From the NCBI GenBank assembly GCA_037367355.1, contig CM074699.1, positions 372,001 through 436,000 of the forward strand: a stretch of DNA of 64,000 nucleotides, read 5' to 3'. Below the pieces are notes generated by a model. The model had not been told where the DNA came from. It did not search any database and worked only from the letters and a program-made list of their open reading frames with translations. The stretch is from Neoscytalidium dimidiatum (taxonomy: Eukaryota; Ascomycota; Dothideomycetes; Botryosphaeriales; Botryosphaeriaceae). This document shows, piece by piece, positions 2 to 63,974 of this stretch. The position numbers were made by a program, and so were the translations under genes. Positions within the stretch are counted from its first letter, which is position 1. Every line of letters starts with the position of its first letter.

Positions 2-3000
2 CGCTACGAAGATCTCGCTCGCGATCTCACCACGTCAATAGACACGCTATACGACTTGTCGAGGGCAAGAAGGGTCTCAGCTTTTGGCGGCCTCTCCCAC
101 GACGCTAAACCACACCTTACCAAGTCCGAGTCCCTTCCATCCACTCCGTTCAAAACTCCCTTCTTGGATGATGAATACAACGAATCTTCACTCACTCTTG
201 TGAGCCCTCCAACTATGTCAGCTTCTTCAACAGTTGACACAGAATCCATTCCAAGGATCGACCCTTCTTCTCTCATTCTCCCTGAAGAGGAACCTCCGCC
301 ATACGAGAGCATCGGAGTGCCCTCCTGTACTCGTCTCATAGGCCATCTACGTCGAAGTCAGCCGTCCACTAATCCATGGAGATTCGATACAGGGGAAGTT
401 CAAACGGTCCCTGTCCTCATCGAGTATGCTGGATTTGATCCTGTCTACCGCATGACAGGTGTACCGCCACCCTTGGAAAGGCTGGAGAGTCTACTTGACG
501 TACTGTCTCGAGGCGTGGGGCGTTTCGGGGACGGTCCGGATGCTCCTGCTTTCGGGACTTTGAAGTGCGTGGGCTATTTCGAGGATCCTAATCAACCTCG
601 TTTTGGGCTCGTCTTCGAACTACCAAGCTTCATGCGCACTGGGGGATCCCGCCCGCTATGGCCGGCCGACCTCCATGCACTACGCCCTGTCACTTTGCTG
701 AGTGTACTGCAGTCCAGCGCGAAAAACAACGTTGCTGTGCCAAATATCCCCGCTCTTGAAAAGCGCTTCCGCGTGGCTTTAAATCTCGTTCTTTCTTTCA
801 GCAAACTTCATGCTAGCGGATTCGCCCATAAAGATGTCAACAGCAGCAATGTTTTGCTTTTCCGCAAATCGAAGCCAGTGGGCCAATCTGGGAGCCACAA
901 GCAACCCCAATTTGAGCTACAGTCACCTTATGTCTGCTCTTTTGACCTCTTCTCAGAATTCAATGTTGAAGTGCAACCCTCTGGCACAAACATTTATCGC
1001 CATCCTCATGATCCTAGCACACAGAACCCAGCACAGTCCAGCTACGGTCCTCGGTTCGACATGTATGGTCTGGCTCTGATCCTACTCGAAATTGGCCTGT
1101 GGATCCCTCTCTCCGACATTTTCAAACAAAAGTATACTCTTGCGGATTTCAAAGTTCGACTTGAAGATATCTGGATCAGGAGATTGGCAGGAAAGTGCGG
1201 TACTGCCTACATGCAAGCGGTGCGAGAATGTTTTTCGGCTGCAGACCGGAACCTCTCTGGCACGGACATCAAAGTGGTCTACGATCGCGTATTAGGTAGA
1301 CTCCACAGATGTTCTCTCCTGGATGACGCCGACCCCTATCCTTTCGATTTGGGACACCATGCGGCAGCTTCTCCGTCTCCAAGTGCAAGTCTCCTGAAAC
1401 GCTCACAGGACCACGGTTCAGGCCATAAACGAGCGAAACTTCAGAAAAAGAATGCGCCCGATATCATTGAGCATCTGGATCAAGAATTCAGCAAGTCATT
1501 GTCATCAAAAGCTGTTGCTGACTCGGAGAGGGCTGAACTTAACTCCTGGCTAGAACTTGGGCGTGCGCACGATCCAGGACTGCATGGTGGTCATGCAGCT
1601 CGTTCAACGAAAGGAGAAGGGCACCATGGTGGGACCCACGCCAGGGTAATTCCTGAGTCTCCGCACGTTGATAGTATGGTAGAGGCTGCAAGAACCATTC
1701 AACGTGCGTGGCGCAGATCCCGGGGGAAGATAACCTTCCAAGAATACAAAAAGAAAGTCGTCATCATACAGAACCAATGGCGCCAGAGAACAGCTCGAAA
1801 GTTTTTGGATTCTTCTGCAGACCAGCCGCAGATACTGGACCGGGCAATCACAGAATGTCATACCGTCCCGGATCCCGATATCACTATCGACGAGATGCAC
1901 GTACGGACATCTATCAAGTTGAAACAACAAAAATCTGCTACGAAACGAAAGCTCCTTGTCCAGCCCCTCTGGAAGCCAAGTCCAAGCATGGCTGCTGAAT
2001 GGGACCAAACAATCCTGCCACGACTTATGCGTATATGTGAGAAAGCCTTAAGAGATTCCCCGGAAAGCTCTAGTATTGATCTCTTTGGAATTGGGCCATC
2101 TCCTTTGGATGCCAAAGCCACGATCGTCGTCACTTGTGCCAGCACGGCAAAAGTGAAGGCAGCCTTGGCAAAGAAATTCAATTTTGACCGCGCCATGTAT
2201 GACCTAAAGGTGCACAAGGGGAGAATTAAGCGGTCGAAGTTGACGAGGCCAACCCGGAGACGCAGAGCACCATACCGATCTATGATGGATGAAGAAGAGG
2301 TGCCGGCACTGAATGGTTGCTTCCAACAGCGCCCTGTCTGTGGAGCTTCGATAGGCGCATACAACGGGGAGCATCTGCCTCCTGTCTCCTATGGAGGAGT
2401 CGTGCTTGTCGACGATGAACCGTTTGGGATGAGTGTCCATCATATGTTGGATATCCCAAGTGAAGACGAGAGTGAGTACGATGACGGGTATTCAGATGTA
2501 GAGTAAGTATTCTCTTTGGAGATCTCAGTGAAAATTGCCCACATGACCCTTTGTGCACTTAACGTGCTCCAACCCCCTTGGTGGATCTTTCTTCCTCGGT
2601 AACTATCTCATTCTCTGAAAACCCAATCCTTGATTAACGATGGCTTTTACTAACGCTACAAGCAGAAGCGAAGAAGCCTTGCGTTCAAGCGCGAGATTGA
2701 ATAGCTACCCGTGGACTTCTCAAATAGGCTCTCAGCCTTTGCTACAGGATCTTCCAGAAACACCAGAAGCATTCGAGATCTCGGACGACGAGGAGGATCT
2801 GGACGATGGCGCCAGCTATACCTATGACTCTGCAGACGAGGCGTACACCGACTCTGAAAGCGAGGATGCTTGTTCTGAACCCGGCGACATCCCAGGTATT
2901 GAAGCAGGTGATGGCGATGAGATTCTCATTACTCAGCCCGCTATCGACGACGTGGAAGACGACTTCTTCCCTTGCGAAGAAGACCGCGATGAAGACCATT

Positions 3001-34783: not shown

Positions 34784-36244
34784 TCGGCCTATATCATACC
34801 TCCATCCCAAGGCGGGATCTACCAGAGGCGAAGAGATGTGGATAAATCGATTTCTATTATCTATTAAATATGTTTGGGTTAAAGAGAGAGCCGATTGGGC
34901 TCCTGGATGCAGTTTTTGATACCTCTTTTCACGTGGAACTTTTCTGTTTTGTTTGGCGACAAGCGGCCATATGGGGAAGCTGTCGAAAATACCCGGCTCC
35001 GATTGTAAATATTTTTTAAGGGTGGGGGGGGGCGTCAGGGTTTTGCAGGATACAACACGAGTGTACGATCTTTGCGATCGGGCGAAGAGCAGCAGCGGCG
35101 TCTTGAGGTATCACGACATCTCGTTACCAAGCGGCTTTTCTTAATTGATGTGGCGGATACTACTTCTGCTGGTTTGAACAAGAAAGATCAACACAGAGTT
35201 TAGCTTAAACGTTCACTTTTTTTTTCGCGAAGCCAATTCCACGATTAGGGTTCGCTGTAAACGCGCATCTTCTCAGGCAACGCTCCTCCTGCGGCAGTCA
35301 ACACCTAATCTGGAGCTGTGGCACCAGAGCTCGGACATGCCGCGGCAATCAATAGACTGCCGGTGACCAGTCCGGCGGTGAAAAGGGCCTAAGGTACGAC
35401 TCGAGGGCAGACATGGTGGTACGTCATGGGCCACTAATTCGGTCGCCATGGCCTCCGCAACTTCACAGCTCTGCACATGCACCATTTTCGGGCTGAAGCG
35501 ACTATGTAGCTCAGCTTCGGCGCTTCTTCGCCGCCTCTCCCTCCACCTACGGCCGCCCATCACCAAACCTTCCTATTCCCGCCGCCAACAGAAAAAAAAG
35601 GCACCGGCTCTCCTCCACTCGCCCCCGCACTTCACGAAAACCGACGGGCGGCCTTAAAATTTCGCCCTTTTTCGCGCGCGGCCTACGAGGAACAAGAACG
35701 CGACATTATCCCACACTTCGCGCCTTCCTTTGCTTCCTCTAGCACCACCGCCAACTTCCGCAGAAACCGCGGGGAAGTCGGCGGACAGAAGGAAGGAAAC
35801 ATTTGCAAACGGAACAACGCTGAAACTCGGGTTGTCACCACCGCGAAAGACTAACTTCAACGTCCCGTCACGCGCGCCAATCTCACCGCTCCCCGCGATC
35901 TACCTTGGAGAAGTGACCTTAAAACCCCCCGTGCGGAGGAAAAGCACAATACGCGCACGGGTTCTTAGCAATTACTGACCGGACGACCGGGCGGGCAACG
36001 CCTTCCGTCCCATCCTGAGGCCACTACTACAAGTGTTGCTCTCTTCCTCCCCTCTTCCCGCAGCTCTTTCCTCGTCGAGGCCGATTCCCACCCAGGCCCG
36101 CTCACGCGCACGTACCTTACCCGTTCATTAGTTTCCCTTTCCTTCCTTCCTCGCCGCGCCACGGCCGCTGCAGACAAGCAGCAAGATCGTATCACTTGCC
36201 CGTTTCCCGTTCATACGCCGCGCTATTTCTTTCGAACGGCTACG
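34784..36244. other. Intergenic, no gene seen
   Basis: A G-run near 35023-35034, a T-tract near 35217-35226, and from about 35430 C-rich leader-like sequence. Open frames have no motifs. Confidence 0.55.
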
Positions 36245-37423
36245 ATGCCGCACTCGACCACCGCGAGCACCACGACCACCACGACGAGCACAACGCCGAG
36301 CAACAGTAGCAGAGATCCCGCCAGCACTACCGCTTCACCCCGTTCCACCCGCAACGAAACCACCCCGTCATCAACACACTCTCACCGCACGACGAGCACC
36401 GCCACCCCGGCGCCCGCCAAGAACATCCACGCACCCCACGGGCCCCCAAAGCGCACGACCGTCCCCCTCGCCGACGGCTGGACCCTCGTCAGCACCACCC
36501 GCACGCACAACCCCAAAAACAAGAAGAAGAACAACAGCAGCAGGGCAGCAGCAAACATGCCAGCTGGTAGCGGCTACAGCGGCCTCAGCCCCGCCGGCCT
36601 ACGGGCGGCGCACGAGCCGGCCGGACCCGCGCGCATCATGCCGGGCACGAGCAAGGAGAGGCTGCTGGAGCGGCTGGCCAAGTTCCGGGAGCGGTGGCTG
36701 GAGTGCGGGTGCCGCGTCGGGATTCGGGGGGTGTTGGGGGGCACGGGGGCGCCAGAGGAGAGTGAGGGTGAGGGTAAAGCGGAAGGATACGGGACAGGGG
36801 AAGGGGAAGGGCTGAGGATCAAGAACGCGGTGTGCATCGGGCTGGGCAGCCTGAGCGTGGACAACGTCGCCGCGGGCGTGCGCAGCATGTGGCAGCTGGT
36901 GTGCTTCCTGGACGTGGTGGAAATGCTGGGCGCCAGCACGCTATACGCAGAGGATCCAGTTTTCAACGCGTTGGATGAAGAGGTGCTGGCCGAGTTGGGC
37001 GTGCAGGTCGTGCAGGGCAGGCGCTCCGCGGATGGCAGCAGGCAGGAGGGCGCGGCACAGTTCATCGAGCGCGAGAGCTTCGTGTTTGCGCCGTTCATGC
37101 CGAGTTTCATGGTGCTGGAGGACTTTTTGGCAGAGAGAAATCCGGCGGTGTATATTGGGAATGATGTGCAGGCGACGCTGGAGCTGGCGAGGAGTCAGGT
37201 GCGGTATAGGTGAGTTAGGTCTCCTCTACTTGCAGTGGATCAAGGGAAGTGCTGACTTTTATCCAATAGTGGAGATGTTGATGAGCGTACGAGGAGGTGC
37301 ATTCGCGTTGCCGAGGAGTTTCTGGCGCAAGGTAGGGAGGTCGTCACACTTCCGGAATTCGACCTCCATGAGCATGCTCTGGCCGGTCAAATGATCTACT
37401 GGAGAAAGCCCGCCGGAGAATAA
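36245..37423 (+). CDS. SRR1-like domain protein
   Basis: Exons 36245..37209 and 37270..37423, phase-2 intron, 372 residues. The first about 130 residues are Thr/Ser-rich and low in complexity. The rest matches the SRR1 domain: ICIGLGSLS-like text (NAVCIGLGSLSVDN), a helix LVCFLDVVEML, YAEDPVFNALDEEVLAELG, then FVFAPFMPSFMVLEDFLAERNPAVYIGND. In Arabidopsis SRR1 links light signalling to the clock; in yeast the relative Ber1 affects microtubules. In filamentous fungi the role is largely undefined. The terminal exon supplies the final helix and strand expected of the domain, which supports the intron. Confidence 0.8.
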
Positions 37424-37780: not shown

Positions 37781-39328
37781 TCAGCGCGTCGGCGGCCCCT
37801 CATTCGAACCGTTAAAGTTCGAAATGAACACGACAAGCACAGCACAGTAAGCAGCTGATGCGGCGAACAACTCATGGCGCTTAGCTTTGGTGAGCGAGGA
37901 CATGGCTGCCGAGAAAAGGAGGGTGAAGACTACCAGGACTCCGATAGCGGTGAAAGTTGAAGAGCGGGTGCCGATGCTCGTCAGCTCGTACATGAGGACG
38001 ACCGGCAGCACGAGGAGAATGAATATTATGACGGTAATGATCAGCGCGACGAAGGCTTCCACCCTCTTGGAGTCGTAGTAGTGGAGATGCTTTTTGTCCT
38101 CGGTCTTTCCGAGCAGGTCGCGCGGCTGGAAGATCCACTATATTGCAGGATGGGTCAACCACTATAGGGCTATGATGGAGATCGTTGCGCTGTCGATTCT
38201 ACTCACCCTGAGCGGCTCGCAGTCACACTTGCTCAGCATCCTCTCGACAAAGCCGTCGAACCCGGCCCACTCTCTCCCTTGCCGCAGGGTGAGCATGTCC
38301 TGCCACTGCTGCAGCGAGTACCACTCCTTCTTCACCAGCGGCTTCCAGTTGTTGAACCACGTGACGACGCTCTTGTAATCGCGCTTGCTTGGTCGCTGGA
38401 ACGAGCCAGTCTCGCGCGCTTTGACGAGGACTTCATCTATTTGCAGAGAAGAAAAGTCACTATGTCAGATAAAACTATCTGCACGAGAAGATACAGCAAA
38501 AAAGAAAAAGAAACGAAAAGAAAAAAAAAAGAGAGTAGAAGGTCACAGGGACGCAGAGAGCACTCACCATATTCGACGAGCTTCTGCCGTATGTCCGCGA
38601 GGATGTGCTTCCTCGTCCGCACGCCCTCGTTCCTCTTCGCCTCCTTCCGCCCGTCGATGTCGTCGCGCTTCCGCGACCTGAGGCGGCGCGCGTTCTTCTC
38701 GTCGTCGCCGTCGCGCGCGTCGGCGCGCTGCAGCTCCTGCTCGAGCTCGGACAGGTCGTACTGCAGGTCCAGCAGCACGCGCGAGTGCAGGTACTCGTAG
38801 CGCCGGTAGATGCCGAAGCTCTCGTCGCTCGCTTGGAAGGCGGCGAGGCGCGGGTAGCCGGTGGGGTATTGCTCCACTGCGCGAAGGCCGTAGCCTTATT
38901 AGAGAGAGGTCTTTCTAGCGTGATGTTTCGAGAACTGTTGGTTTGAAATATTGCCGCAAGTTTCCAATGTGCCTTTTCTTTTTGTGAAAAGAATAACGAT
39001 GTGAAATAGACATTTAGAAGGGAGGGCAAGGCGCGCTCTGCTCACGTACATGAACGAGTGGGCGCTGGTACCAACTCGGGCTCTTCTGGTGGTTCTATTA
39101 CAGCCTTTTGTTACAATGATGTCACGTGAGAAGCCTCCCGATCAGGGATCATTCACCAAATCCTTCTCCGATAGGCGAGTTGACGGCCGTGGTGGCTCGG
39201 CTGGGGATGTTGATGTAGAAGTCTCCCTCGGAGGAGGTCGTGTTGGTGGTGGCGACGGGGGCGGATGGCCTGCACAGTTCGAAACTGCAATTGGCAGCAT
39301 CATCCGCCTGGCTCGTCTTCTCGTTCAT
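37781..39328 (-). CDS. DUF6594 membrane protein, module copy A
   Basis: Minus-strand exons 39328..39157, 38876..38568, 38436..38207 and 38137..37781; 355 residues, phases 1, 1, 0. A Thr/Ser-rich N-terminus (residues 1-57) leads into VEQYPTGYPRLAAFQASDESFGIYRRYEYLHSR, the entry signature of the fungal DUF6594 family. A charged helical region (YDLSELEQELQRAD) and the block DMLTLRQGREWAGFDGFVERML follow. Three membrane helices lie at the end (about 265-287, 299-319, 327-345). The first exon was assigned because its last base plus the acceptor rebuilds the conserved Val before EQYP. No function is known for the family. It is the left gene of a three-gene unit repeated at 43439-47597. Confidence 0.82.
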
Positions 39329-39651
39329 GCTGGGAACATCGAGGCAAGCAAGCAAGGCTGAGAGGAAGGCGTCAAGAACAAAAAGGAAAGGTGGTGTGGA
39401 TGAGGGGAGGGAGCCGATGGATTTGCTAATGGGTGGCAAGGCCTTAGGTATTTACCAACCCAGCCCTCGCGTTCTATCGGGGCGGTCCGCAGGATTTCGT
39501 CGTGTTCCCGCATGACACACGGCTGAGCGAGGTGAGCAACACGGCTGCCTTGGACTGCTTGTGCGATGGTGGGCGGCGGGGCTTGCGCCACCACGAACGA
39601 AAAGAAAGGTTACGCGGCGAGAGAGGGGGGTGGTCCTCGCTGCGTTGTTAT
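39329..39651. other. Spacer between the two minus-strand genes of module A
   Basis: 323 nt separating the SH3/tudor-like gene (upstream on this strand) from the DUF6594 gene. Likely terminator and promoter; nothing else seen. Confidence 0.5.
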
Positions 39652-40128
39652 CTACACTGCTTCGAGACTGCTTTCCGGAAACCATTCCCTTCTCGTGCCA
39701 TTTCTAAGCCGCTGGACGTACGGCTGTCCCTCGCACTCGACCCTGTACTCCCACCTTCCGTTCATCCAATTGTTGTCCTCCAAAACCACCGCTTTCAGCG
39801 GAGTCATGACTCCGTTGACGTTCACTGTCAAGATTACTTCGTCGCCGGTGTCGAACTCGGCAGGAGGTGGCTGTTTCCACCGGTCAAAATGAGACTCTCC
39901 TAAGGCTGTTTCTGGCAATAAGCTCACCGGTCTACTACGCCTTCTTACGGCAAAAGATTTCTGGGGGCCATCTGATTCCTGGTCAAGAAGATTTGCATCA
40001 GCCGATTGCGCCGCCCCCGGCTCCCGCACAGCATTTCAGAAGCGAGCAGAGCAAGGATTGAGATGACATACAAGGTCCGAAGTTTCTGGCATAGTGTTCT
40101 GCGGAGGATCCTGAGGAGAACCGTCCAT
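39652..40128 (-). CDS. Small SH3/tudor-like protein, module copy A
   Basis: Minus-strand exons 40128..40072 and 39978..39652, phase-0 intron, 127 residues. The N-terminal half is polar and basic. The C-terminal half has the look of a small beta barrel: EFDTGDEVILTVNVNG, then a strand pair ending NWMNGRWEYRVECEG, then REWFPESSLEAV. The pattern GDEV...W.Y.v...W..ES.L is shared with the protein at the same place in module B, although other residues differ greatly. This spacing resembles tudor/SH3-type barrels that bind peptides or methylated residues, which is an inference from pattern only. It is the middle gene of the module and is transcribed away from the caspase-like gene. Confidence 0.65.
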
Positions 40129-41289
40129 TCTGCCGATAAGTGGGTCTGAGAGGTCTGTAAAACCCCTCTCTTTCTCCTGACGTTCGCGTGAAGCCTTTCG
40201 TCCGCCGAGTACGAAAAGGAAGGAGCACTAGCTGTTCTGTTCTTCTGGTTCACTATCCTTTTCGGGATATATGTGCGGGTGTCTTTAATCGTTGTGCATT
40301 GGTAAGAGAGGTACGAGAATAGACTTACTGGACCGTCATCCATCTTTATAGCACGTTGCGCACGCAGAGCGGCCTCTTGAGGCTCAAATTCTGTGCAAAC
40401 GGCAGGGTAGAAAGAAAAAGGAAAAGTTACTACACGTGGGTTTGAGGTAGGGGTGGTTCGCCGCTGGCTGCTTATCGCGCTGCCACAAAGCAGAGAGGTG
40501 TGCATGCAGACAAACGGGAATAGTGCGCTGGATGCTACGCTGCAATGGCTACCGATTGGCCGGGGGGTCGCATCAGGCAGCAAACGCTGACGGACGGCGA
40601 GGCAAACGAGGCGCAATCAGCCTCCTTTGGGGGGCGGAGTCGACTGCCACGCCCTCATACTCATGGAGCAGAGAGGGGGGATGAGGCTCGCATGTGTCGG
40701 ACCATTCTACCATCTTCTTCTGCATCGCATCGAACGCACCATCTCGATCGGGATCTTGCAAAGTTTTTTTTTTTTCGAACCTCACCTGGTGGGGTCCCTT
40801 TCTGGCCGAGAGCCTAGAGCTCTCAGCCTTGTGGTTCGGCCCCCAGCCGGCCGAGGTGGAAAAAGCAAGAAAGGACGGCACGCGTCCAGCGCCCTCTCCG
40901 CAATATCGAGCAACGCGCGAAAGCCATGAGAGGCCGTGTGCGAGACAGAAATTGCAAGAGACAACTTTAGATCGTGGGAAGAGCCCCGTTTGGAAGCCAT
41001 GAGTTGAGCAGCCAGGCAGCGTGGCTGGTGGGGGGCCGCTCTCGTGGTCAGCGACGGAAACAGCTCGCGCTCTCAACTTAGCATCGCCCGCGCCTCCACA
41101 AACCAGGGGTCTTTGAAGGAGGGGTACTGCGGGCCGCTGCGGGAGAGACAGCTTTGCCTGTGCCCGTTAAATAAAAACTTTGGCGGGAGACGGGAATGCT
41201 TCCCACACGTAGTTCGTGGTTGCTCCTTGGTGGACAGCCTCTGTACTTGACCTTTATTCTTTGAGCTTTCAACGCACATACCAAAGGCT
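40129..41289. promoter_or_regulatory. Divergent promoter region of module A
   Basis: 1.16 kb between the small SH3/tudor-like gene and the caspase-like gene. A T-tract lies near 40766-40775. Long frames on the minus strand are overlapping and have no motifs. Confidence 0.45.
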
Positions 41290-42983
41290 ATGGCCTCAAA
41301 GAGCCACAGCGGAGAACCCTCGCCGGTCTTACAGTCCACTGTTCCGTCGACAGCGGGCCGGCACCAGTCGGACGAGGAGCCTGCCAGAGGGGAGCGGCAG
41401 CCTGCAGCCGCTACTCGCGCCCCGCAACAGGCAAACGCAGACTCACCAACCGGAAACGATCTGCAGGATACGGCCGCAGAGTTGCAGGACCAATGGACCG
41501 ACGCGATACACCGGAACATGAGAGTGCCGGAAGGTTACGCGCAGGCTGCCGTGCTCATCGTCAAGTGGGCCTTGCACCTCGACGATCTCAAGTGTCTGGA
41601 GGAGGTAGATATTGAGCCTCGCCGATGGCTTTGTTCGAGGGTCTGACAAATATATTGTACAGGTCGTTGAGCTGGACAAGCTTTTCCGCGAAAGATTCCA
41701 TTACAAGACGGTCGTTGTGTCGTTGGACGAGAAGGCTCCGCACTACCAACTAATTCAGGCGATCAGCGGCTTTTTACGAGAATTTGACGGCCCAAACAAC
41801 CTGCTCATAATCTACTACACCGGTCACTCTGCATATAACACAACGACCGAAGAGCTGGAATTCTATGCGTGAGTGTGTACCTAGCCAGCAAAGGTCGCCT
41901 ACTGACACCGCATTCAGTAGGAACAGGCCTCTGAAAATACGCGGTGATGCACAGAATAGCCAGCCATCCACAAGCTGGAATTTCGCTGAGTCCTTACTAC
42001 TAAGGGGTACACAAGCCGACACTCTCGCGATACTAGACACCTGTTTCGCCAGCAACGTAAATAAGGGTGGAGCGTATTCGGGGAGGGCATACCAGTTACT
42101 TGCTGCAAGTGGCCCTGATAGGCCAACAGCCGCCCCTGGGCCGAAATCATTCACCACTGCCTTAATCCAGGTGCTGACTGAGTGGTTGGATGAAGACCAC
42201 CAACGCATGACGCTATGGGGACTCAGCTCAAGAATAAACGAAAAGGTTTACCGACGTCAGAATCCATGCTTCGTTCAGGACCGGCTTAAGCAACATGATC
42301 GCCTGATCTACCTGGCTCCTCTGAAGAAGGACAAAGACGCGCGCGAAAAGAAAGAGAGGGCACTCAGCCATAAGACTGGCGTCACAGACCTTACACTTCG
42401 TTTTGGTCTTGGTGTCAAGTCGTTGACCAGGGAGCAGATCGAAATCCTGACGAAAGAGCTGCCAAAGGCTTGCAAGGCTGCTGATGTGAAATTGCAAAGG
42501 ATCGATTGGGTGAGTTTCGAGGAGCGCCCACCCAGCTTCAAAAACGCAGTCAACGCGTTCAGCTATGCGCAACACTGGCTCCGCGAAACTCGAAGGAGGC
42601 GGAACCACTCAGTTCAAGGACAACTTGAAGTTAGCCAAAGCGACACTCATGAGAACCAACCCTACACAAAGCCTGCTAGCACGACGATTACTACTGGAGT
42701 CATCAACATGAAATCTGAAAACACCGAGTCCGTCAACGTGCACGCTGATACCGCAGTCATTGAGAACCCAGTGCCGTCGAGCTCCGAGAGACAAAAACGA
42801 GATAACGATCGATCTGATAATGGCAGATCACTACCCCTCGCCACCCACAATCCTCTGCAGGGGGAGAATGTGATGTCCGTCCACATCGGGAACATGGCTC
42901 CACTTACATGGGCGGTGGTAGGGATGGGCGTTCTGTCTTGTGCAACAACAATTATTTGTAACTGGAGAACACTGCAAGCTTGA
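41290..42983 (+). CDS. Caspase-like (C14) cysteine protease with C-terminal membrane anchor, module copy A
   Basis: Exons 41290..41604, 41663..41868 and 41918..42983, intron phases 0 and 2, 528 residues. A disordered N-terminus (about 65 residues) precedes the protease. Catalytic His160 lies in LLIIYYTGHS and catalytic Cys216 in LAILDTCFAS, each at the end of a hydrophobic strand as in caspase, metacaspase and CHAT folds. FLREFDGPNN before the His strand and SFTTALIQVL after the Cys strand complete the core. A second conserved block (LTLRFGLGVKSLTREQIEILTKELPKAC) follows. The polar linker ends in one hydrophobic helix (MAPLTWAVVGMGVLSCATTI) with a short tail, so the enzyme is probably tail-anchored. 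Substrates are unknown; the DUF6594 neighbour is the obvious candidate partner. Confidence 0.85.
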
Positions 42984-43438
42984 GCTGGTGATGCCTGATG
43001 TTTCTCAGACGCAAAATTGGCGTGGTTTGGGATCTCTCTGTTCCTTTGCCTCCTGTTATATGGATACCCCGTTTCAATTACGGTTTTCTTTTTCATCAGT
43101 CTGGGTTAGTGGAGGCGTTGGGCACCGGTGCCTACTTTTCATAGAACGCCGGCACATTATCGGACAATGTTTTGCCTTAGGCGACCAAGTCACATTCCTT
43201 ACTTTGGCTACAACTAATCAATGAAAACAAATGTATATATACGCATATCCGTGATACCCCAGATTAAACCCAAGGCTGTCAAATAGAAAAATAGCCTGAC
43301 TGAATAGTGTCCATGCTAACCAGTATTTTCGTATTCACAATCGATTTCCTGTCACTTAGTACTCCAAATAGAAGAATCTCGACATCCCTACCAATCAACT
43401 CAGTACATTCCGAAGGCAAGAGCAATTGATTTGACTAC
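42984..43438. other. Convergent intergenic region between modules A and B
   Basis: AT-rich, 455 nt, separating the end of the copy-A caspase gene from the end of the copy-B DUF6594 gene. It holds the boundary between the two duplicated units; no transposon ends or target-site repeats seen. Confidence 0.55.
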
Positions 43439-44736
43439 TTATTGAGAATTGTCAGAAGCATCGTTGAAGTTTGAAATGAATACCACCAAGACCGCGCAGT
43501 AAGCCGCCGATGACGCAAATAATTCATGCCGTTTGGCCTTCGTAAGCAGAGACATAGCCGCAGAGAAGAGGAGAGTGAATACAACTAACACACCAATTGC
43601 ATTGAAAGTCGATGAGCTGCCACCAAAACTGGTCAATCTATACATCGCCACAACAGGCAGGATGAGAAGAATAAAAATGATCCCGGTAATGATGATGGCA
43701 ACGAATGACTCCACCCGCTTCGCAGAATAGTAGTGAATGTTCTCGTCAGTCGTCTTCTTTGACAGTTCTCGGGATCGGAAAATGGACTGCAGGATGTTAA
43801 TCAAGCTCCCATGTGTTGTCAATAAGCACATACGCGGATGGGCTTGCAATCAAGCCTTCTCAGTAACGCTTCCACCATGCCATCAAATCCGGCCCACTCT
43901 CTTCCTTGACGCAAAGTAAGCATATCTTCCTTACACTTTATTGCGCGACACTCGTGTTGGGTCAGAGGTTTCTCATTGTTGAACCATGTTCGTATGCTGT
44001 TGTAATCCCGGTCTGAGGGGCGCTGAAACATTGACGTTTTTCGGGACTTGATCAGCAACTCATCTATAATATCCGTCAGAATTGTGTGATACCAAGGATA
44101 AGAAACTTATTACCATATTCTACAAGCCTACTTCTAATTTCTGCAATCACGTCCCGACGGGTCCTTTTTGAGCCCTGTTCTTTTGCGTACTTTTCATCTT
44201 GCAATCTAGACTGAAGTCGATGCCGGCGTAGATTTGAGTTATCCAGGGCATCGAAGTCGTCCAGCTCCAGCTCAAGCTCTGTGAGCTCTGATTGGAGATC
44301 AAGGAGTACGCGGGAATGAAGATAATTAAAGCCGCGGTAAACGCTAAAGCATGGCTCACTTGACTGAAAAGCAGCAACCCGTGGGTATCCCCTTGGGCAT
44401 TGCTCTACTGTATATTGAAGTAAGTGGATGATATCATTTGACACAGAGATCATTGCATACACGTGCGCACAGTCGTCTCATGTATTCTCCTGCGGCGTAC
44501 TTGCGATGCCGAAGGTGTCAAGAACCGTGAGATGGGGCACCGTCTAATCCAACGCTCTAGATCTCGTTAGAACTCTCTTCACAGTTTTTCTGGCTGAGCT
44601 CACTCTGCGTCGTTGAGGTATTCTTATTCATCTTGGTATCATCTTTGATGTCGATGATGGCCTCGCCACTGAAGAACGCAGTGCTGCTGGGAGACACCGT
44701 TGGAATAAGGTCCGATTTTTCTCCCTGTGAACTCAT
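43439..44736 (-). CDS. DUF6594 membrane protein, module copy B
   Basis: Minus-strand exons 44736..44583, 44407..44114, 44063..43834 and 43786..43439; 341 residues. The middle exon of 230 nt has exactly the length of its counterpart in copy A, with the same phases. VEQ-type entry EQCPRGYPRVAAFQSSEPCFSVYRGFNYLHSR, block DMLTLRQGREWAGFDGMVEALL, and three terminal membrane helices match copy A nearly residue for residue in the membrane region. The N-terminal 51 residues differ apart from a short SGEAIIDIKDDT-like match. The first donor (T|GTGAAG) is the least certain junction; the total closes in frame. Function is unknown; it pairs with the small gene at 44918 and the caspase-like gene at 46188. 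Confidence 0.78.
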
Positions 44737-44917
44737 ACTATCGAGATGGAAGTTGAGCAAGAGATAGTAGACGGATATCAAGCGCAAGCGCAGCGGAGGG
44801 CTGTAAAGATGTTTGGGTATTGGGATGCGGGGTTTGGAGTCTATTTATGTATTGCTTATCGACTACGTCTAGTTTCGTATGCAGCAAGCATCCCAGCCTT
44901 GCATGCCCTCTTGCCTA

Positions 44918-45370
44918 TCATCGAGCGTGGCGCAACTCGGACTCCAGAAACCATTCGATGCCATCACTCTCGTAAACGATGTCGTCGTTCTTAAGCTTGT
45001 ATACCCATCCCTCATCATCCTCGTCCGCTTTCCACATTCGCTGTTGGACCTTGAAGTGCTTGGGTTTCTTTATTAATTCACCGTCCTCTATTTCTTCAAC
45101 CGCCATTATAACTTCATCGTCTTCATTGAATTCAGCTGGTGAGCTCTCACAGGGTGTCAACTTTCTGGGCCAGTGTGAACTTTGAGGCGTCCACTCACCA
45201 TTTCTGGATCGAGACTGGGATCTACGGTCGATTTCTTCGGGGAGTTGGGAAGGACTGCCGTACGGGACTATTCCATGTCAGTGAGTAACCCGACAGAAGG
45301 GTTGAAATGCTAGAACACGCGTCCTTGCTTACTTGTTTCGGCATGCTTGGTAGCCTCGTGAAAATCGGAT
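44918..45370 (-). CDS. Small SH3/tudor-like acidic protein, module copy B (5' end uncertain)
   Basis: The secure part is the minus-strand frame from about 45255 to 44918. It reads a Ser/Arg-rich segment and then PAEFNEDDEVIMAVEEIEDG, a lysine-rich strand, EGWVYKLKNDD and IEWFLESELRHAR. This parallels copy A (PAEFDTGDEV...RWEYRVE...EWFPESSL). The start is probably the ATG near 45358 followed by a GTAAGC donor, giving a tiny first exon as in copy A, but I found two possible acceptors and cannot choose. The protein is about 115-130 residues and more acidic than copy A. Role unknown; the barrel-like fold is inferred from pattern. Confidence 0.55.
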
Positions 45371-46187
45371 GATAACAATGAAATCCTGAGAACCCAATAC
45401 AACAATTGGCTTCTTAACGTACGTGGTGGTGGCTCTGAGCAGTGCTGCGTGCGTGCTCTTCTGTGATGGGCCCATTGGCTTTGAGGTATTTATGTACGTG
45501 TGATTCTCAGTGAACTGAACTTGAACTCAGCCTCGCACCCAGCCTTGTGACAAGCACCTCGCTCGATTCATGATATGGTTGACTGGACACTGTGTTCAAT
45601 GAACGCCAGGTGGCGGGCTGTGCGGGGAGACTGCTTGGATGACCGCAGCTGTGGCGCCGCCCACTGCATATCTTATTGGTAGAATCATTCAGCCTGGCAT
45701 CAACTACGAGAAGGCAAGAAAGCAGGCAGACACGTAAATCAGCCTGACCGGAATATGGTGTTTCTGGAGGACTGTTGAAGGTCGCTTGCTGGATACCAGC
45801 CACGTTTTGATGCTGTAGAATTCTCGGTGGGGGGGCTATGTTATGACTAATGAGCAGCATATGCAAAGGGCGACGACCTCTAACAGTTTCGATTAATTGG
45901 CTAAAGCACCCTAGCAAGGCAGCATGTGATAATTGTTGATCGTCGATGATGAGGTCTCACGCATGTTTGGCTCGCAAGGCGCAGATCCTGGCACGACACA
46001 CAGTGATGGAGGCTGGTGAAGCGGGAGCGCTGGCAGAACCGCGCCTTGCAGAACCCTGATCACTTGATCAGACTGATATTTAAACCAAGTGGGGCGCTAT
46101 ATGAGTGGGAATTGTGTATTTTGAAGAAAGCCTACTCGTGTTCGCAAAGAGCGTCCTGGAGAGCTCGGTTACTTCATTGACAGCACC
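45371..46187. promoter_or_regulatory. Divergent promoter region of module B
   Basis: About 0.8 kb between the small gene and the caspase-like gene. An AT-rich element GATATTTAAA lies at about 46076-46085, some 100 nt before the start at 46188, and may act as TATA-like sequence. No further gene seen. Confidence 0.45.
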
Positions 46188-47597
46188 ATGAACAGTCAAA
46201 ATAATCCGAAGCACCACGGGACCTCAAGCCGAAGGCGTCATTCTGAGACAGACGTAACATGGAGAGACAGGTTTTGGCTCCCCACCACGGACGATCTTCA
46301 TACTTCACTGCCCATCAGCCTTCGGCACGAGATCAGAAATCAGGAGCGGGCCTCAGAACTCCAGCTCCGGTGGAACGAGGGCATAGCAGAGAACATAGGC
46401 TTCTCCGACGGCTATGACCAGATTGCCGTGCTAATCATTAAATGGCATGATGACTTGGATAGTCTCAATACCAGGCAAGAGGTATGTCTAGGAAGATGGG
46501 AGCTTGAGATGTCGTTATCTGATGAAAAGTAGGTCGATGAGCTGGAAAACGTGTTCAGAAATGATTTCAACTACATAACCACCAAAATCGATCTACACGT
46601 AGATAAACCTCCGCAACAGCAGCTCAATTCAGCGATGGCAAATTTTGTGCTCGAATTCGACGGACCACGAAACTTGCTGATCGTTTATTATACTGGTCAT
46701 TCTCAATATCGCGAGATATCAAAGAATGATGGCGTAGATGACGGGCTTTTGGAATTCTTTGCGTCAGTGCTGTCACCAACGATAGATTGAACAGGAAATT
46801 GAACTAATGTAATATGCAGTGATCAAGTACCACGAAGTGCAGAATCCAGAGAGGCGATTGGACGCAGAGGGAAGGAACCCGCGCGTGCGATGTGGCACCA
46901 AGCAGAGAAAAGCCTCCTAGAGGGCTTGAGGGCTGATGCTCTCGCAATTCTGGACACTTGTTTCGCCGCACGCGCTCACAAGAGCGTGATGGATGGAGAC
47001 AGAGCTTACCAGCTTCTCGCTGCGTGCGGACACAGCATGGTAACGTCGGGTCCAGGCCAGAACTCATTCACAGCGGCTTTGATCAAAGCGTTACGAGAGC
47101 TCCGAGAGCTTGGTCGGCCCTTCACGACATACAAACTGTGTGAGAGGATCAACGAGCATCCGCCAAGGCACAAAAGTCCCTCGCATGTCTACAACAGGCT
47201 CAAGCAAAACGATAGATTCATCGCTCTCAGCCCACTGGACAGCAGCGAGACCACAAGGGAGCAACGGACCAAACGTGTCAACAATGAGCAACTGATCGCA
47301 TCATTCCTGACATTGCGGTTTGCGTTCGGAGAAGATTGCAGGATCCTGACAGATGCTCATGTTGATGCTTTGACTAAGTACCTCCCAGAAGCATGCAAGA
47401 GGGCCGGCATGGACTTGCACGATATTGAATTCAAGGACTTCCGGCAGCGTGAACAGAACTTGCGCACTTCCGCGAAGGTTGGCCCTGGAGTTCCCCGTTT
47501 TCAGCCACTTGGAAGGCTCAGGACCGATACTTCGCTGCTCAACGAGACGCTCTCTCCTCTGGAAGAGGTGTCAGGTGCCAAAAGAGAGAGCATGTAA
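46188..47597 (+). CDS. Caspase-like (C14) cysteine protease, module copy B, no membrane anchor
   Basis: Exons 46188..46481, 46533..46762 and 46820..47597, phases 0 and 2 as in copy A, 433 residues. Catalytic His154 is in LLIVYYTGHS and catalytic Cys222 in LAILDTCFAA. The flanking FVLEFDGPRN, AYQLLAACG and SFTAALIKALREL, and the later LTLRFAFGED...HVDALTKYLPEACKRAG, align with copy A. Unlike copy A the protein stops about 30 residues after the last conserved block and lacks the hydrophobic C-terminal helix, so it should be soluble. The second exon is longer by a polar loop between the His strand and the intron. The intron positions show that the two genes arose by duplication rather than by separate capture. 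Confidence 0.85.
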
Positions 47598-58479: not shown

Positions 58480-61400
58480 CTAGCCGTTGATTGCAACTTC
58501 GAGTATATTGGTGATCTTTTCAAGGCCAAGTCGATCCGCGAGAAGTGCTGCTTCCCTCAGAGACTCCACGCCGACCTTTCCAGTATCGACCAGACGTTGA
58601 ACCATCGATTCTCCCAATATTGCTACTGCTGTGACAATGGGTGGAAACCGCTTGTAATCCTTAATGATCGTGTGCTGTAAATCACGCCATGGGTTGGGGG
58701 TTGTGTTAGTAGCAATAATCTCCTCGAAAAGCCAGGCGGGACAATGTGTAGGATAGTCAACCTTGGAGTTTTTGGTCTTCAGCAGTGCTGAGATGAAATT
58801 GAACGGGTTGATCAGTTCCAGGTCCTCCGGCAGTAAGATTTGTAACAGATCGTATCGCTTCAATTCGTGGGCGTAGCTTTGCGCTTGATCGAGTGAATCC
58901 CTTGACAAGAATTCACCACCTTCTCTGATTAATATCCGGACAATATCTGCATTTCCACTGAGGACAGCGTGTGCTAGCGCAGTCTTTCCAGATGAGTCCA
59001 TCATGTTCAGTGAATGCGCAGTCCACTTATTGATAAGAACCCCTGTGAGCGTTTTATATCCAGAGCGTACTGCGTGCATCAGAGCAGTCATTCCGGAATC
59101 GTCTACTCTGCAAGGGACTGTCTTCGAGTCCGGACCAACATCTCCGGAAATAGGTGCGAGATCGGTGATCTTTTGAAGAAATTCTCCAGCATCCTGGTCT
59201 TGTAAGGCGCACTCAATAGTGGGGAAACCCATAATGTTCGAGTATGCTAGCCTCATCACGGATCGGTTATCAAGGCCCGACACGGGATACCCTCTGTCCT
59301 GAAAGATGATTCTGAGGGTATCAGAAAACCCTAATATTGCTGACATTTCGAGCGCACTCCTTCTTTTGGAATCGACACCAGTTACAGCACTGGAGCTTGT
59401 CTTGACCAGGCGGAGACAAATTTCCTCGTCAGTTTTTTCGAGTGCGTATGTCAGTGCTGACATTCCTCCCATATCCGTGAAACTGATCGAAAGCACATCC
59501 TTTGTGAGTACGAGATTCAGGCATTCCGTTAAGCCCCGTTCTATTGCCAACATGAGCGGGGTCCGCCCTCTGTAGTCTGTTGCATTGACCGAGGCATCCC
59601 ATTTCGTGACGAGACTCACAGCAAAACCTTCGTCTCCATTCCTGATAGCATGCATTAATGCAGTCATACCGTGGAAGTTGAAGTCGTCCACTAAGGATTT
59701 GTCTTTCATGAGGATTGATTTTGCCAAGGAGGTCATACCATTTTCGGCAGCATCTGAGAGAATGAAGCCGGGGACGTGACATCCTCTATCAAGAAGGTGA
59801 AGTGCCATTTTCTCGGCGCCAGTCGAGATGCATGTTTGCAGAACTCTTGACCTAGAGAAATATCCAAAATTCGTTATCCTCGGATCCTTGTCGATGACTG
59901 CGTTGACAATTGTGTAGTCTCCACTGGATGCGGCCTTACGAAGTAGTTCTTCTAGGACTCCCTTGCGGGCTGAGAAGCGGCCTTTCGTAACAAGCAGCAT
60001 GATAAGACTGTGCTGATTAGTGCCAAAGAGGTCATCTAATACTTGCAAAAAACCTCTATCTAATGTCCGAACAACACGATCCACAACCGTGGGGTCATTC
60101 TCGAGAAGGGCTTCAATGACTTCTTCATGAGCGCTTTTTAAGGCAAGTAGGAACGGGCGATCACCGTCCCTATTCGGAACGTGAGGGTTAGCGCCATGCT
60201 GCAAGAGAAGCCTGACGATGGCCGCTTGTCCGGTTCTTGAAGCTATGTGTATCGGATCATCAGCTGGATTGCTATCAGGCTGGTCGCAAAGCTCGTCGTC
60301 GCTTCCTGTCTCGGAGTATTCTTCCAAATCCATCAGTTCCGATGGTTTGTTCATAGGTGCCCCAGCTTGAAGCAATTGAGATAGTATCTCAAGACGTATT
60401 TGGTTCTCTTCCATCGAGTATACTCCTCTGACTGTGGAGTAAATAGCTCCTTCCAAGTCCAATTGCTTCTGGATTAGCTTTTTCACGAGCAACACATTTT
60501 TGTTTCGGATGGCGTAGAACATGAGCTCCCGTTGTGGACCAAAAGCCTGGAGCTCTGCACCACACTCTATCAATGCAAGAATAAGAGAGTCCGCTCTCTC
60601 TGTAAAGGCCACCGTCATAGCGGTGTCACCGTCGTTGTTCTCCGCATTGACATTCACCGAGGTCCTCGTCCACGGGCCTTCGTCTTCACTTTCGTCGTCC
60701 ACGAGAGAGAGTTTCTGGTCGAGAAGTCCCCGATTATCCCGATCTTCCTGGCCTAAACTTAGGAGCATTAATGCCATGTCGTGATGGCCTTCCCGAATGG
60801 CTAGGAGTAAGGGCGTGTTGCCGTCCAGATCTTGTGTACCAACTTCGATATCCTCGTTCTTCAGATACTCAGTGAAAGTAGTCTTCGCGCCAAGAGCCAC
60901 CAGGACGTGAAGCACAGTAGCGCCAGAGAATGGCCAACCCATCGGACAGTGAGCACTGTCGGGATCCAAGGCCTTCCACAATGCGGCGACCTTGTGCAAG
61001 AATTCCGACTGTGGAGCCCAATGAAGAATGTCCAAGAGATCAAATTGAGTGACGCCTTCCTTATCCAGCTGGTGGATATGGTGGAAGAAGAACCGTACTG
61101 CGTATGGCGCCAACGGATATTTCGCGGAAAGTGAACCGCGTGGGAGATTGGCTCCGTCCAAAACTTCTCTGAGAGCCAAGTATTTTAGGCAAGACCGTGA
61201 AATTTCGAGGTGGCCAAGTCCAGCAGGAGATATCGAGATCTGTGGATCAACCTGACCACAATTAATATAGTGCTTGATCAAGAAATCTGGGACGGATTGG
61301 TGGATGAACTGAGCCTCTCTGTTGAATTCTTCTCTGTCGGGCTCATATTGCTCCCACATATCGCGTGTCTGGAATTCAATTAGGCCTCTGGAAAGATGCC

Positions 61401-63974
61401 TGACGCGTATTTCGAATCTCTCAACAGAATCAGACCAGTCCTGGTGGTTCCTGAGCTCAGCAACAGTCGTAAGCTCCATGTCTTTGTCAGCAGCAAGCGC
61501 ATCTCGCAGTTCCTGGACTGAAAGAGGTCTTTCGGCAAACAAGATCCACAGGAAGAGTTTCGTTGCTTGCCGTTTCTCGGAGTCATTCATGCACCCTAAG
61601 ATATCTGTGTAGAGTTGCTCAAGTGCTTGTGGAGTGGTCTGAATCTTGTCGAGGATCCTTTCACGGTTCATGCCCATCGTGTTCTCCTCAATGACCATTG
61701 CGACAACTAGAACAGCCCACTGAAATCCTCCTCGAACCCTCATCAATATCTTTTTTTCAAATTCACGTCGCTCTGATTCCGGCTGAATGTTTTTTGAGTG
61801 CTTCTGTACGACTTGTCTTATGTCCTTGTCGTTTTTATCCTCAACAATGACCCCAGGAAAAGTGTGGACGCCAAGGACCGGATAATGTCTGGAAGATATG
61901 CACACTTTCAATCGCCCTCCTGCTTGTGCTGCCTTCTCCATTACATCTCTGAGATACGCCAATAACTGCCTGGCTTCGTCATCTCCGCACTCATCAAGCG
62001 CATCGATAAGGATGACTACAGATTTTTCCTTGGTTTCCTGAGTCAGGAGCTGGGTCATCGAGTCCTGAAGCTCTGACTCTGTCCATTGCCACCTGTTCTG
62101 CATGCAAGATCCAAAAGATCTTTCCCGATGCTGGAAATTCAAGAGGAGGTGCGACAGAGAGCCAGGGAAGTGGACGAGAAGACTACCCAGGAGCGCGCGA
62201 AAGAGACCGAGCGGCGTTTTTTGCAATGGAACGCCGCGACCATGAAAGAAGAAGGACGCGATGATTTCCCCAGAGTTCCGCTTTTTCAAATTCTCGAAAG
62301 CGTATTTCATAAGGCATGACTTGCCGGATCCCGGGTTCCCCTCTATCCAGAAAAGTCCTTGAGGCTTACTGGTCCAACCTTGGAAGCCGGCATCGTTTCG
62401 TAGCCATTCGCAGGTCCCTTGGTCAAAGCGGATTTCATTGCACCTGTGATCTCGCTCGGGGAAATTGAGAGATCTGATACAGTCTTCGTTTTATTAGACC
62501 AAATTTTAACGTTCGACCTAGATACTAACCTTCTTGCTGGTCTGTAAGAAAAGGTGGTGCTGGATCGAAATATCAAAACTTGTATTCTTTTGTAGTCAGA
62601 TTGTCTACACACCGTCATAGCCATCAGAATGGTTCCTTGAGTCTGCCATAGATCCAGCACCACTGACGAGACTGTCCAGCATTACTTGAACACGCGTGTA
62701 TGCCTCGTCATAATAAGAGGTATACTTGACTATCTCTGAGTGGCTTCGGTTGATGGGATGCTGATCCTTACTTCCGCAGATTGCAGATGCAGGATCGACT
62801 AAAATATCCAAATGCCCGGATAGCTCCCATTTATCTCCACGCTACAATTTTTGAGCTACGGCTGGTCCTGTAGAGCATGGGCGGGCTCACCTTGCGGGCT
62901 GTTCGGGATTTCTCTGTCTCAAAGTACGAGACTATTTTCGGGGGTTTCGAGCCGAAAGCTTTTTGGAAATTTCTCTGTAGGTTCGAGAGAAGATCTGAAT
63001 TCTTGCCCAGGGACTCCAATAGAGCTCGATTTGGTTGATCTTGAACCAGAGGTACCAGTGATTCCGTTGCCATCCCTTCGTGCGGTACACCGAAGAATAG
63101 AAATGCAGAGGTGGATTTCAGTGTCGCCAAGTCCTGTTCATCGCCATCCTCTTTCAATTTTACGACGACCTAGATTGCGATACGTCAGGGAGAAAACTTT
63201 CTCAGTGCCAGGATGGACTGACATCTTTGATGAGAAGACCACCCAAACTATGCCCAATAAAGATTAATGGTCGGCTTCTGTTCAGCTTCTAAGATGCACT
63301 TTTAGCAGATGTAATTTACTTTTTTTAAAAAAAAAGATAGCATACCCTGATAGTCCTTATGTGTATTTGAAAGGATCTTCCAAGATTCGCCAAGCTTTGG
63401 AAAGAGCTACTCTGGACCATTTGTGTGTCATAACCATAGATGAGAATCCTCGCGGCAGGAATATCGAGCGGTAGCGCATCACGAAGCCACATAAAGGGGC
63501 CGTCCCTTTCTTTGAACGATCCGAAAGCGTGGCCACCAAGACCGGAGAGAGCGATCAGGCTAAGGCCATATATCAGCAAGATGGATCACTTGTTGCGAGA
63601 TACTGGATATATTACTCGACATGGCAGTCATCCTCATCGGTGAGCTGGAGAGGCGTAAAGCCCCCAAAATGGGTATCAAAGACGAGCGGCTTTCTCAGGC
63701 TGTGGGACTCTTCATCCGCAGTTTCGGCCATCGGTAGGGGGATGATCCATTCTTTCTTTGAGCTTTCCGTTAATAGAGGCGGTATAATAAGAAAACTTAG
63801 CGTTGCGACTCTACTATTGCTATCGACCGGATTAATAGCAAGCGAATGCACGGTGAAATTGGCTCTAGAAGAGATAGATAAGGCATTTGTGACGAGGTTC
63901 CGAACATCGCTTTTCCTTTGGTAGTTATGCGGGATCCCTCGTAATCGGAAGTTTAAATGACTATCCGGAGCCAT
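58480..63974 (-). CDS. NLR-type protein: lipase-like N-terminus, NACHT, ankyrin repeats
   Basis: Minus-strand exons 63974..63616, 63559..63346, 63288..63223, 63169..62891, 62841..62609 and 62473..58480; 1714 residues. After an N-terminal FRLRGIP segment comes an alpha/beta-hydrolase (SesB-like) domain: ALSGLGGHAFGSF, then the nucleophile elbow GHSLGG with Ser205, then FLFFGVPHEGM. The NACHT core has P-loop GNPGSGKS with Lys435, Walker B VVILIDALDECGD (about 536-548) and the arginine-containing ISSRHYPV. About residues 920-1600 are ankyrin repeats (for example DGNTPLLLAIREGHHDMALMLL, DSGKTALAHAVLSGNADIVRILI). Such proteins sense non-self through the repeats and fire through the N-terminal enzyme. 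The junction 62609/62473 is the weakest; the rest are clear. The ATG at 63974 follows an in-frame stop. Confidence 0.85.

Follow-up and report, generated by a model that had tools for sequence, protein, structure and literature searches.

We analysed a stretch of 64,000 nt from Neoscytalidium dimidiatum (CM074699.1, positions 372,001–436,000; hereafter the window, in whose positions the coordinates of the trios are given), which carries two trios of genes, A and B, in tandem and head to tail. In each trio, a gene for a DUF6594 membrane protein and a gene for a small protein lie on the minus strand, and a gene for a caspase-like protein diverges from them on the plus strand (Table 1). All gene models were predicted from sequence. 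They located the six genes where an earlier note on this DNA had placed them, with the gene order and strands that it had described as identical in the two trios. Its statement that intron phases match gene by gene held in the best-scoring models: the phases are 0,2 in both caspase genes and 1,1,0 in both DUF6594 genes, and both small genes have a short first exon (15 nt in A, 12 nt in B), a single phase-0 intron and then a conserved exon. The same is true of the 230-nt DUF6594 exon reported for both copies. Of the 10 models compatible with DUF6594 A, the one with the best score has exons of 172/309/230/357 nt, and one alternative with a lower score has a third exon of 224 nt; the third exon of DUF6594 B is 230 nt long in both of its compatible models. 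The catalytic residues that had been named, His160 and Cys216, are exact for caspase A. Three models, one acceptor apart, are compatible with caspase A and two with caspase B; the models are least certain at the 5′ ends of both small genes and at intron 1 of DUF6594 B. The A and B proteins are 44% (caspase), 57% (DUF6594) and about 30% (small protein) identical, and similarity of the A and B DNA is left only in short patches, which indicates that the tandem duplication is not recent.

Table 1. Features of the two tandem trios (window positions).
Feature	Position	Strand	Basis and remarks
DUF6594 membrane protein A, 355 aa	37781–39328	−	Exons 39328–39157, 38876–38568, 38436–38207, 38137–37781; PF20237 222.3 bits
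Small protein A	39652–40343	−	Exons 40343–40329, 39978–39652; splice model and family profile; 5′ exon tentative
Head-to-head intergenic stretch, small A/caspase A, 946 bp	40344–41289		From gene models
Caspase-like protein A, 528 aa	41290–42983	+	Gene model; His160/Cys216; C-terminal hydrophobic stretch 503–521
DUF6594 membrane protein B, 334 or 341 aa	43439–44736	−	Splice model; PF20237 exon matches
DUF6594 B exons	44736–44604 (or 44736–44583), 44407–44114, 44063–43834, 43786–43439	−	
Small protein B	44918–45344	−	Exons 45344–45333, 45214–44918; splice model and family profile; 5′ exon tentative
Head-to-head intergenic stretch, small B/caspase B, 843 bp	45345–46187		From gene models
Caspase-like protein B, 433 aa	46188–47597	+	Gene model; His154/Cys222; no hydrophobic tail found

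The arrangement recurs elsewhere in the 43.76-Mb genome (G000; C3 to C12 denote its contigs). Four trios were found, window A, window B and one each on C6 and C7, and they share one layout (DUF6594 ←, small gene ←, caspase →) with the small gene in the middle in all four. Searches with caspase A and with the C7 caspase C7b each gave the same six caspase-family genes, the C4 caspase gave four, and no others appeared; only the best candidates were scored, and further distant members are possible. Each of the six genes has a DUF6594 match at a distance of 1.2–5.9 kb (caspase A is closest to the B copy, its own DUF6594 A being about 2.7 kb off), and all are within 10 kb of a DUF6594 gene, the spacing applied to gasdermin-protease clusters. 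As controls, we used HET-domain matches, 1 of 147 of which fell within 7 kb of a DUF6594 place, and the places where Pfam detected C14 or CHAT, none of six of which did. The 41 PF20237 matches of the genome were grouped by hand into 24 places, and their 7-kb surroundings amount to 0.76% of the genome. The corresponding product for the three linked places elsewhere in the genome is about 4e-7, which is a guide and not a formal probability, since linked places may share ancestry. Proximity of DUF6594 and caspase genes is thus enriched over chance in this genome. Other places are less regular: on C4, caspase and DUF6594 genes stand on the same strand, with no small gene detected; C3 has DUF6594 and two small-family matches, with no caspase match; and on C7 a second caspase lies 5.9 kb from DUF6594, beyond a HET-domain gene (locus L036:3086–4924, plus strand; C7:2717086–2718924 of G000) that has a kinase fragment alongside.

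As an assessment in other fungi, we compared two sets of database matches. The caspase profile found 76 proteins, of which 32 were named fungal entries, which we take to be mostly Dothideomycetes. The DUF6594 profile gave 498 matches at E≤1e-10, and the best 120 of the 498 were used, among which 31 entries came from the same species as the caspase entries. For 14 of the 32 caspase entries, a DUF6594 entry of the same species was found on a contig of identical length among the matches listed; in a cross-species control, such coincidences numbered 0 in 955 pairs. The 13 caspase entries that had no same-species counterpart among the best 120 of 498 were left out of the judgement. Both families occurred in 19 species among the matches listed, and 13 of them share a contig as judged by equal length. 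In Glonium this contig is only 18 kb long, and in Neocucurbitaria the two locus tags are adjacent. Ascochyta lentis, which is outside the 13, also has adjacent tags (EKO04_007775/007776), though the reported contig sizes are slightly unequal. In Coniosporium apollinis, a single predicted protein (W97_08941) contains both PF00656 and PF20237. No common contig was seen among the matches listed for Alternaria alternata, Botryosphaeria dothidea, Lasiodiplodia theobromae and Paraphoma chrysanthemicola; the Lasiodiplodia tags, at least, derive from different assemblies. The earlier note had taken a linkage confined to this place as counting against its idea; there are instead two more trios in the genome and linked or fused caspase and DUF6594 genes in other fungi, and both support its proposal that the three genes are a set. 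The co-occurrence of all three families that it envisaged for other genomes was found for the caspase and DUF6594; a search of limited sensitivity found no small protein in other species.

The two genes also appear to share a history. In the caspase tree, window A groups with Macrophomina (100/98) and then with four other Botryosphaeriaceae entries (100/99), followed by Aplosporella (93/83, under the starred support level) and window B (97/88). The DUF6594 tree has the same order, in which A is joined by Macrophomina (100/99), Diplodia (100/98), Aplosporella (100/94) and B (100/97). The branching suggests that the tandem duplication is likely to be older than the split of these Botryosphaeriales and that both genes have stayed together since, both trees being midpoint-rooted and no B-type entry having been identified from another species. 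Caspase-linked DUF6594 entries cluster on their tree, in a sample that came from a search seeded with linked members: the tree requires 8 changes, whereas shuffling gave a mean of 15.6 and none of 500 shuffles reached so low a number. Caspase and DUF6594 distances correlate among five paralogous pairs in the genome (r 0.94, p 0.042) and among 15 one-per-species pairs (r 0.69, p 1e-4, inflated by species history); two of the entries used have defects. The best-supported conclusion is that caspase and DUF6594 form an evolutionary unit, to which, in this genome, the small protein regularly belongs as a third component.

A predicted model of the Macrophomina relative of caspase A has the caspase fold, with MALT1, caspases and metacaspases tying as its matches. 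The catalytic His is present in 40 of 40 ungapped rows of the alignment and the Cys in all 42 relatives aligned. The motif around the Cys is DxC[F/Y/M] in 41 of 42 rows and DTCF in both window enzymes. PF00656 was matched by 22 of the 42 relatives at E≤0.01 and by caspase A slightly below the cut-off (E 3.2e-4; 20.9 bits against 21.4), while caspase B had no Pfam match at E≤1. An exon-level search of the genome with PF00656 found none of the six caspase-family genes, its C14 matches being other genes. Three known classes were considered and rejected. Metacaspases are marked by DxCH and type II paracaspases by DxCR (PMC5756287; here and below, the accessible parts of the papers cited by PMC number are meant), and the last position is H in 1 and R in 0 of the 42 rows. 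The CHAT family PF12770 was matched by none of the 42 relatives (E≤0.01) and by neither window enzyme (E≤1), and CHAT-family matches in the genome sit elsewhere than the module caspases. The caspase half of the C14/CHAT-type label in the earlier note therefore stands by the fold model and the CHAT half falls: the enzyme is, as modelled, of C14-type caspase fold with an intact His-Cys dyad, a predicted protease, and the findings suggest that fungi have a caspase lineage separate from both metacaspases and CHAT. Two further sequences were observed in these searches. At C11:512414–513788 of G000, CHAT and Peptidase_C14 matches occur together in a stretch of about 1.4 kb. The metagenome protein P0068 (584 aa) has a caspase-family-like start (68% identity across 8% of the query) and then a long extension, the end of which looks kinase-type by eye, possibly a receptor-like fusion.

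Both window membrane proteins are members of DUF6594 (PF20237; presumably IPR046529 in InterPro), DUF6594 B by exon matches of 89.8, 69.6 and 35.7 bits against the cut-off of 30 that also applies to A. DUF6594 A has three hydrophobic stretches between residues 267 and 345, at the C-terminus, and the predicted structure has a long N-terminal helical region ahead of the hydrophobic helices. No gasdermin Pfam match was obtained for DUF6594 A at E≤1. Elsewhere in the genome, a DUF6594 match with 13 internal stops (C12:1284816–1285544 of G000) is probably a decayed copy.

The small protein had no Pfam match, and profile comparison with the PDB gave nothing significant (best E 0.35; chromodomain Y-like chains at E 1.6–2.4), so that its earlier description as SH3/tudor-like was neither confirmed nor excluded. 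We built a family profile from the A, B, C7 and C3 sequences and ran it on 5701 six-frame reading frames from the window and 11 loci. It recovered a fifth member on C6, located between caspase and DUF6594 (E 2e-4), and a sixth on C3 (E 0.001), the best match to reversed sequences being at E 2.7. A search of the whole genome with the C7 small protein as the single query recovered the C6 copy independently (E 2e-4); genome searches with the A, B and C3 proteins gave few or no further members.

The pairing of an intact-dyad enzyme with a three-span membrane protein fits the idea of a protease and its membrane effector. We propose, at what we judge to be close to an even chance, an old and repeatedly duplicated fungal module whose three-span DUF6594 protein is under the control of a caspase-fold cysteine protease. 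Two things suggest this mechanism: an apparently active protease is paired with a membrane protein, and the gasdermin-protease pairs provide a precedent. The stretch between small and caspase genes is perhaps a shared promoter, to judge by its position, and the two genes would be co-expressed from this head-to-head region of 0.8–0.9 kb. The enzyme, perhaps tail-anchored in the A lineage, would encounter DUF6594 at the membrane and, on a trigger, cut it after a basic residue. The prediction of cleavage after Arg or Lys comes from an invariant Asp that precedes the catalytic Cys by two residues and takes the place of Asp462 of MALT1, whose catalytic Cys we take to be Cys464. The cut would alter how the C-terminal three-helix unit acts, plausibly making the membrane permeable, and the small protein would keep the pair together or inactive. 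By analogy, the likeliest setting would be regulated cell death or a non-self response.

Several observations weigh against this proposal. The DUF6594 model is of modest quality (predicted local distance difference test score, pLDDT, 70.8; predicted template modelling score, pTM, 0.51), and its comparison with solved structures gave no convincing relative and no recognised pore fold; pore formation is therefore a guess. The C7 copy of DUF6594 (locus L035:9002–9607, plus strand) has an in-frame TAG in the first conserved exon, where its paralogues have Tyr, and may be a pseudogene, possibly dead, or an assembly error. A caspase lies within 7 kb of only 5 of the 24 DUF6594 places, which suggests that most of the family works without a caspase or with other partners, and DUF6594 entries with no link seen nest inside linked clades. 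A small-family match on C5 (1319725–1319901, minus strand; E 1e-6) has no DUF6594 or caspase match nearby, and to this is added the failure to find the small protein in other species. By hydropathy, the hydrophobic tail of caspase A has no counterpart in caspase B or in the relative P0021. Contig sharing was inferred from equal length, on contigs of up to 3.4 Mb, and is weaker than adjacency. The Coniosporium fusion may be a merger of two neighbours by gene prediction; even so, the two genes would be neighbours on one strand. Cleavage, pore formation and cell death are all inferred from the genes and the predictions.

The chief rival to the proposal reverses the roles: DUF6594 would control the enzyme, as an anchor, sensor or inhibitor that recruits or gates it, another protein would be cut, and the small protein would be a scaffold. 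A helical region ahead of hydrophobic helices is as typical of anchors as of effectors, DUF6594 lacks a recognised pore fold, and the dyad is intact in both window enzymes, so the enzyme itself could be the effector. The finding of a caspase near only a minority of DUF6594 places agrees better with an effector that has various partners than with an anchor specific to caspases, and we regard the reversal as unlikely. We consider still less probable a co-regulation of the genes in an ordinary process, such as membrane-protein turnover or a stress response, in which cell death is not involved. Head-to-head genes do suggest co-expression, and non-animal homologues of caspases often have functions other than cell death (PMC5756287), a point that also counts against the setting proposed above; however, the divergence of the tandem copies at the caspase and DUF6594 genes and the presence of several copies per genome seem to resemble recognition or conflict genes.

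That there is no functional link at all, the genes being chance neighbours or having shared the duplication of a region rich in gene families, seems very improbable. Tandem and segmental copies carry passengers, neither A/B nor C7a/C7b counts as two independent events, and a single ancestral cluster may have given rise to all four places; against this stand the four separate places in the genome, the linked entries of many species, the predicted fusion, the fixed layout and the parallel branching of the two trees. Equally far-fetched, in our estimation, is a selfish or self-killing pair to which the small protein would be the antidote. The rapid evolution of the small protein and its gene's middle position in every trio would suit an antidote, but they fit an adaptor equally, and the solitary C5 match has neither partner.

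In comparison with known systems, the fungal gasdermin-protease pairs (HET-Q1/HET-Q2 and CHAT-gasdermin) likewise have a protease gene near that of a membrane effector, a role that for DUF6594 would be by analogy; S8 proteases are the cluster partners of about 63% of fungal gasdermin genes, and CHAT proteases those of 19% (PMC10197012, also PMC12881547). The module differs from them in that its protease has a C14-type caspase fold instead of being S8 or CHAT, its membrane protein is DUF6594 with three hydrophobic helices and no Pfam gasdermin match, it has an additional small protein, and Pfam revealed no repeat or NLR sensor part on the window proteases. In the NLR/HeLo pairs (NWD2/HET-S), neighbouring genes also act as a set at the membrane (PMC10197012), but the trio has no NLR, and no HeLo was found in the five trio proteins scanned with Pfam. 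Metacaspases and paracaspases (C14B) share with the module enzyme the caspase fold, the His-Cys dyad and the Asp two residues before the Cys (PMC4357240), and differ from it in the residue after the Cys; the C14 genes that Pfam detects in this genome lie elsewhere. A study that started from 19 effector families included CHAT and S8, and neither C14 nor DUF6594 in the accessible part of the paper (PMC9815663). The best-ranked papers in the literature on fungal caspase/C14, NLR, gasdermin and metacaspase gene clusters, judged by titles and the openings of abstracts, yielded no description of a caspase-DUF6594 pairing, and a search of 5.39 million papers, with no preprints and few subscription papers among them, yielded none naming DUF6594, PF20237 or IPR046529, so that there is no described function for comparison.

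DUF6594 is thus a large fungal family, with 24 places here and 498 database matches, that no paper among those searched names, and the link to a caspase-fold protease gives part of it a first testable role; the predicted preference for Arg/Lys is a checkable property of the enzyme. If the enzyme does gate DUF6594, fungi would have a protease-controlled membrane pathway made of parts with no sequence kinship to gasdermins, a point relevant to the number of times that such pathways have evolved. It is a doubtful further step to rank it with S8-gasdermin and CHAT-gasdermin as a third kind of protease-driven membrane pathway in fungi, in which an Arg/Lys-cutting caspase lineage switches on DUF6594; that one enzyme lineage would be tail-anchored and the DUF6594 family a reservoir of membrane effectors is, as part of this, likewise rather unlikely.

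Other open frames in the window were also noted. Directly before module A lies a frame with an SRR1 domain (35969–37210, plus strand), an ordinary-looking neighbour. About 11 kb from module B, an NLR-like frame of 1336 aa (58483–62490, minus strand) has an NPHP3_N match followed by ankyrin repeats, with a NACHT match under its cut-off. An 834-aa frame at 2–2503 (plus strand) has a borderline DUF7580 match (26.7 bits, cut-off 27).

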